Shown here one piece after another: positions 18,227 through 33,947 of a stretch of 34,785 nucleotides of DNA. The DNA is from Acidobacteriota bacterium (GTDB lineage Bacteria; Acidobacteriota; Terriglobia; UBA7540), in NCBI GenBank assembly GCA_003224695.1, contig QHZO01000151.1, positions 20,882-55,666 of the forward strand, read 5' to 3'. Under the pieces are notes generated by a model. The model was not told the DNA's origin. It worked only from the letters and a program-made list of their open reading frames with translations, and did no database searches. Positions within the stretch are counted from its first letter, which is position 1. Each line of letters starts with the position of its first letter. The translations under genes and the position numbers were made by a program.

Positions 18227-18799
<573 letters not shown>

Positions 18800-18810
18800 C
18801 CAAAAAACCT

Positions 18811-18952
18811 CAAACTGATTCATTGCGCAACTGATTGATTGAAGAACTGCTCGACCGAAACTCAAGGCCCCCGGCTTCGAATCGCACGCCGCGCTCTTGC
18901 CGTCAGATTTCAATGAGTCAATGATTCAATCAAAAGATGATTCAATTTCTTA
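18811..18952. repeat. Intergenic tandem-word inverted repeat (ctgattgattgaag ... caatgagtcaatgattcaatcaaaagatgattcaa)
   Basis: gattgatt-type words on the left and attcaatc-type words on the right, overlapping the AhpD-like upstream region. Confidence 0.55.
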
Positions 18953-32289: not shown

Positions 32290-32517
32290 TCAGCTTGCTG
32301 CAGCGGCGCCCTCCGAGCGCTGGGAATTATTGAGAATTCAAATTCGGCCGCGCCAACCGCAGCATCGCTTCGCCGAATGTGATGACCTCAGCCATCGGTG
32401 GCCCCGGAAGGTTTCTAAAAGAAAGGTCGGCGGTCGCGGTTCGATCCGTCAGCCGACGGACTCACCGCCCTGAGCTTGCCGAAGGGCGGACCGCCGCTGC
32501 AGGATGATCAAACTGAG
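32290..32517. repeat. Composite palindromic repeat element upstream of apt
   Basis: Ends cttgctgcagcggcg / ccgccgctgcaggatgatcaaactgagtcac; contains ggttcgatccgtcagccgacggactcaccg and ccctgagcttgccgaaggg. Confidence 0.75.
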
Positions 32518-32580
32518 TCACTGCCGGCGCAGGATTTCCGTCGGCTTGACGGACGCCCCGACTCTAGATTGGGAGGGCCT

Positions 32581-33096
32581 GTGGAGGAATTGAAACGCCT
32601 GATTCGGGAAGTGCCGGATTTTCCCAAGCCCGGCATCAACTTTTACGACATCACAACCCTGCTAAAGAACCCAGTCGGGCTGCACAAGGCGGTGGACTCG
32701 CTCGCCAACCATTACGTCGGCCGGAGGATTGACCGGGTGGTGGGGATCGAGGCCCGAGGATTCATATTCGCCCCCATCGTCGCCTACCGGCTTAACGCGG
32801 GCTTCGTGCCTGTGCGCAAGGCAAACAAGCTTCCGGCCGAAACTGCCCGCGCCCACTACGAGCTCGAATACGGCAAGGACGCGCTCGAAATCCACCGCGA
32901 CTCGATCGACCCGAAGCACGAAGTGCTCATCATAGACGACTTGCTCGCCACCGGCGGCACAGCGGCGGCGGTCGCCGGCCTGGTCGAATCGCTGGGAGGC
33001 AGGGTGGCGGGAATCGGGTTCCTCATTGAGCTCGAATTCCTCCGTGGCCGCGACAAGCTGGCGAAATATGACCTCCACGCAGTGCTGAAATACTAG
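32581..33096 (+). CDS. apt: Adenine phosphoribosyltransferase
   Basis: GTG start after gggaggg; [58 protein letters not shown]. Confidence 0.95.
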
Positions 33097-33269: not shown

Positions 33270-33947
33270 TTAATCGGCTTCGGCCGCTCGGGCCGGTCCG
33301 GTTTCGGAAGGAAGAGCTTTCAAGACGGCCTCGAGGAAACGGCTTTCGGGCAGCGCGCCCTCGACGAATTCCTGTTCGTTGATGACGGTCTTCGGAACGG
33401 CATAGACGCCGTATTTTTCTGCGACCTCGGGGAATTCCGTCACTTCGATGCAGTCGGCACGGATGTGGGGGTTTTCTATGGCAAAACGCTGGGCGAGGCT
33501 CACGGCCTGCGGACAGTGCGGTCAAGTGGGAGTGACCAGGACTTCCAGATGCACGGGCTGCGCGATTTTGGCAAGTCCTTCTTTGGTTTTGGGGGCGAGC
33601 CCGGAATCGCCCTTCGATACGGCCAGAATCGCGTCGAGCAGCGTGGCGAACTCGTATCCGGCCGGAAGGCCGTAAAATCGGATGCCGTAGTCTTGCGTGT
33701 TCCGGACCACCGTCGCAGGGATCTTATCCACACCGTACTCGGCGGCCTTCTGCTTGTCGAGAATAAAATTGTAAACTTCGAGCGAACGCTTGGGTGAGAG
33801 GGCCGCAAATTCTTCAAGAAGTTGCTTGGCCTCGTGTCCGTACTGGAGGTTGAGCTCCTGCGTGAAATGCACCAGCTTGACCGGATGGACTAGCCCTTCA
33901 AGCCGCTTGCGGATTTCCTGCGCATCGTCTTCGCCAATCAGTCCCAT
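33270..33947 (-). CDS. Thioredoxin/glutaredoxin-like (PDO-type) protein, probable selenoprotein with UxxC (UGA at 33522-33524)
   Basis: Same frame across TGA: HLEVLVTPT[UGA]PHCPQAVSLAQRFAIENPHIRADCIEVTEFPEVAEKYGVYAVPKTVINEQEFVEGALPE. UGA aligns with the first Cys of CPxC. Confidence 0.85.

Follow-up and report, generated by a model that had tools for sequence, protein, structure and literature searches.

A redox gene of an uncultured soil acidobacterium seems to be disrupted by a stop codon, a TGA, but is almost certainly intact, since this codon would be read as selenocysteine (Sec). As judged from sequence comparison, its product is a two-thioredoxin-fold protein disulfide oxidoreductase (PDO) in which the catalytic residue of the C-terminal fold is selenocysteine (U142-P-H-C145), a reading that we hold at a probability of about 0.95. 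The gene lies in a stretch of 34,785 nt that is called here the window (Table 1). Standard annotation would truncate or miss such a gene, and the same applies to its counterparts in dozens of related genomes.

The interrupted frame and its protein family

The frame comprises 225 codons, ends in TAA and has a single interruption, the TGA at 33524-33522, which is in frame between LEVLVTPT and PHCPQAVSLAQRF. A preliminary description of this DNA had located the codon after LEVLVTPT, at the position of a catalytic Cys of PDOs; it is indeed read there, on the minus strand, which that description did not give. When translated through the TGA, the protein matches TIGR02187 (NCBIfam PDO_seleno_TRX, protein disulfide oxidoreductase) with 266.3 bits, from position 2 to 209 of the 209 in the profile, the curated equivalog cut-off being 185 bits. 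Its Pfam domain is PF13192. The likeness to PDO homologues suggested earlier extends over the full length of Pyrococcus-type PDO structures (1j08, 7.4e-49; 1a8l, 3e-47), where the TGA coincides with the first Cys of the C-terminal CPYC; this homology to solved structures is enough to establish the fold. The resulting UPHC, opposite CPYC of 1j08, occupies the C-terminal CxxC/UxxC site that is expected of TIGR02187. The source assembly holds one copy of the PDO.

Table 1. Positions in the window of the predicted selenoprotein gene and its elements
Feature	Position	Strand	Remarks
PDO-family selenoprotein gene (predicted)	33270..33947	minus	start codon ATG at 33947, last base of TAA at 33270; one Sec among 225 residues
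In-frame TGA, residue 142, U of UPHC	33522..33524	minus	40 distinct homologues have TGA in this column, 4 have TGC
Resolving Cys codon TGT of UPHC, residue 145 (predicted role)	33513..33515	minus	Cys retained in every homologue read
Degenerate N-terminal active site, LQYG versus CQYC of PDO	33834..33845	minus	
Putative bSECIS apical hairpin AGGC-CGUGA-GCCU	33492..33504 (approximate ends)	minus	loop 17 nt after UGA, within a longer imperfect stem

Conservation of the UGA and the machinery to decode it

In a survey of the class, PDO homologues were found in 43 of 399 genomes, one weak unrelated match being left aside. The numbers of internal stops returned by this search were dropped as direct evidence; because some of the TGAs counted can be gene terminators (G108, for instance, has the Cys form), the site was read individually in each locus that covers it. 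This gave 44 distinct sequences, two named public relatives included. The site codon is TGA in 40 of them, spread over many genera, and TGC (Cys) in the other four, with no other residue present, while the second Cys of the UxxC/CxxC motif is retained in all 44. Thus, an in-frame UGA stands at a position held by Cys in homologues, as is expected of a bacterial selenoprotein. These counts bear out the earlier preference for Sec over chance nonsense, and the kind of close relative that had been named as contrary evidence, one with a residue other than Cys or Sec or with further disabling mutations, was looked for and not found: at this codon the closest relatives have either Sec or Cys. Among relatives with a name, the nearest is 'Acidobacteria bacterium gp13 AA74', which carries the TGA, with 80% protein identity over 176 residues, and its site sequence is identical to that of the same-genus genome G132. 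In a maximum-likelihood tree, four switches of the Sec/Cys label are forced and the Cys forms sit among Sec forms, a pattern expected of repeated exchange of Sec and Cys. Downstream of the TGA, dN is 0.07-0.24 and dS 0.8 to 3 (where computable; one pair is saturated), and this region is under purifying selection.

The same observations bear on the reading of the TGA as a true stop, produced by a nonsense mutation or a sequencing error, in a pseudogene that would yield the N-terminal fold only. A single in-frame stop would indeed be seen in a pseudogene or after such an error. Nevertheless, 40 distinct genes of many genera share the TGA at this very catalytic codon, which speaks against a true stop, as does the purifying selection downstream, and the protein made from the part before the TGA would be devoid of any CxxC motif. 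The conserved UGA has already refuted this reading in practice, and the probability left to it is negligible.

Decoding as Sec also calls for dedicated machinery. The source assembly (4.6 Mb in 380 contigs, 87% complete) contains tRNA-Sec with a UCA anticodon (70.8 bits), SelB (311 bits), SelD (368 bits), which is interrupted by a UGA of its own in the motif GUAAKLSP, and a partial SelA (386 bits) that is cut by a contig end. The co-occurrence of the four, SelA as a contig-end fragment, is again what is expected where a bacterial selenoprotein is made, and it indicates that the organism is equipped to read UGA as selenocysteine. The preliminary description had regarded a lack of SelB or selC as fatal to the Sec reading; both were found. 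Furthermore, a second UGA gene, which it had announced within the window, exists as an AhpD-like gene on the minus strand (18227-18949), whose TGA lies at 18556-18554. This gene is AhpD/peroxidase-related (TIGR01926, 170 bits), has the motif CFYU (CxxU) and is related to the NF041238 AhpD-related (seleno)protein group, but scores below the cut-off of NF041238. The SelD gene (C119:10006-10932) lies about 10 kb before the start of the window, on the contig that also holds both UGA genes of the window.

Among the 43 genomes with a PDO, SelB is present in 38; the five in which it was not detected, G132 among them, are all drafts with a completeness of 72-91%. Since SelB is widespread in the class in any case (289/399 genomes), the co-occurrence of PDO and SelB gives only mild support to the Sec reading. 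It is also conceivable that the UGA is read through with insertion of Trp or Cys instead of Sec, through an altered genetic code or near-cognate decoding, and UGA is in fact read as Trp in some bacteria. This is very improbable here, given the near-complete Sec route in the genome and a site that alternates with Cys only, never with Trp. In addition, UGA is also found at catalytic positions in SelD and in the AhpD-like gene, and it terminates ordinary genes of the relatives. Selenocysteine is thus the preferred reading of the codon, and the case for it is built on the conservation of the UGA and on the Sec machinery, not on the hairpin described below.

A candidate SECIS hairpin

According to PMC13188914, a bSECIS has a loop of 3-9 nt, an upper stem of 4-16 bp, a G in the first two loop positions, a distance of 16-37 nt from the UGA and an MFE of at most -7.5. 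The hairpin AGGC-CGUGA-GCCU, with its 4-bp apical stem and a 5-nt loop that has G at position 2 and U at position 3, falls within the limits given there. It had been described previously with a G at loop position 2, which is so, and with its loop about 18 nt after the UGA, where the distance is 17 nt. The 50-nt fold that holds it has an energy of -11.3 kcal/mol. Folding of the 50 nt after the UGA, also proposed at that stage, gives a value within the bSECIS limits, although one that is not unusual for the base composition of the gene (z = 0.36) and no stronger than chance.

Covariation in the hairpin was looked for in 30 relatives; no compensatory changes were seen, and shuffles reach the observed values, so proof of a SECIS by this route was given up. 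The test has little power because the arms of the hairpin fall on codons that are constrained by the protein. Among synonymous recodings of the source gene alone, 54% match the native hairpin. When the 40 Sec genes are taken as a group, by a statistic that ignores relatedness, their hairpins are stronger than those of synonymous recodings (0/300 as high); by the same statistic, with the same disregard of relatedness, the hairpins of the four Cys genes are unremarkable (39/300). Different hairpins are present in divergent Sec genes, for instance CCGGGAGC-GGU-GCUCCUGG in L080 and AGCCA-GGU-UGGCU in both L083 and L087. Overall, it is plausible, not proven, that AGGC-CGUGA-GCCU acts as the SECIS.

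Active sites, possible mechanism and known relatives

The N-terminal site of the gene reads LNLQYGHEA, which had been pointed out as the place where a CxxC might be expected; in agreement, LQYG is aligned opposite CQYC of the P. furiosus PDO. The N-terminal CxxC that two-site archaeal-type PDOs have besides the C-terminal one is therefore absent, this being a feature of a subset that is not required for TIGR02187. In families f1 and f2, it is lacking from all main-copy genes that were read at the N-terminus, and it is retained in f4, f6, f9 and in the second copies of G035 and G084. These two are genomes of the same family with a second, divergent PDO (L083 and L087) that has a TGA at the site and keeps the N-terminal CxxC. 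The clade thus seems to have turned single-site, Sec being the attacking residue and C145 the resolving one. A more tentative proposal, to which we give somewhat less than even odds, is that the acidobacterial clade holds a distinct single-site PDO in which one Sec would carry the whole redox activity because the N-terminal CxxC was lost. The loss itself would be a modest subfamily feature.

In the proposed mechanism, SelB loaded with Sec-tRNA-Sec would decode the UGA with the help of the stem-loop that closely follows it. The selenol of U142 would then attack a disulfide or an oxidised substrate, C145 would resolve the intermediate and a flavoenzyme of the thioredoxin-reductase type would re-reduce the U142/C145 pair. 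The N-terminal fold, its CxxC lost, probably serves for docking or structure only, like the first of the two folds in the N-terminal domain of AhpF. In Sulfolobus solfataricus, PDO is reduced by an NADPH thioredoxin reductase and hands the electrons on to targets that include peroxiredoxin (PMC7278568). The same chain, from thioredoxin reductase through PDO to peroxiredoxin, is possible in the source organism because its genome has a strong match to thioredoxin reductase (385 bits; C318:7306-8202) and a match to the peroxiredoxin C-terminal domain.

A functional partner was also sought among the neighbours, where the conserved genes, adenine phosphoribosyltransferase-like and acylphosphatase-like, say nothing about redox partners. 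The former, assigned by eye, is a convergent gene that adjoins the PDO at 32476-33096 on the plus strand, with equivalents in L049-L077; the latter, also assigned by eye, adjoins the PDO in many relatives.

The gene had been called a hidden selenoprotein. Its reading as a Sec protein is supported, but TIGR02187 members with UxxC have figured in lists of selenoproteins since the 2000s and, in PMC9312934 and PMC13188914, are catalogued as 'homolog of AhpF N-terminal domain'. PMC1794560 lists this protein for Carboxydothermus and Symbiobacterium, and PMC13188914 mentions Asgard archaeal members. As such selenoproteins are already known, the source gene adds one more to a recognised family. With the catalogued protein (Grx-like domain protein, ABB15282.1) it shares both TIGR02187 and the UxxC motif; the known members are reported in other phyla, and no member from Acidobacteriota is named in the passages of these three papers that were covered. 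The archaeal PDO (P. furiosus 1a8l; 1j08) is a full-length homologue that differs in having Cys at the C-terminal site (CPYC opposite UPHC) and CQYC at the N-terminal one, in contrast to Sec and LQYG here. The AhpF N-terminal domain (TIGR03140; 1hyu, 1zyn) has the same two thioredoxin folds and is a weaker match (78 bits), but in AhpF it is joined to a thioredoxin-reductase-like part and works with Cys, whereas the gene here is free-standing. The thioredoxin-like selenoproteins Sec.1 and Sec.2 also contain PF13192, although their motifs are spaced as CxU and UxC instead of UxxC.

The general understanding of selenoprotein biology is not changed by this gene, and its close relatives, with their repeated Sec/Cys switches, are useful for asking what the enzyme gains from selenium. 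Finally, in two deltaproteobacterial MAGs (L030 and L032), a Cys-form PDO continues in frame into an apparent FAD domain of the thioredoxin-reductase type.
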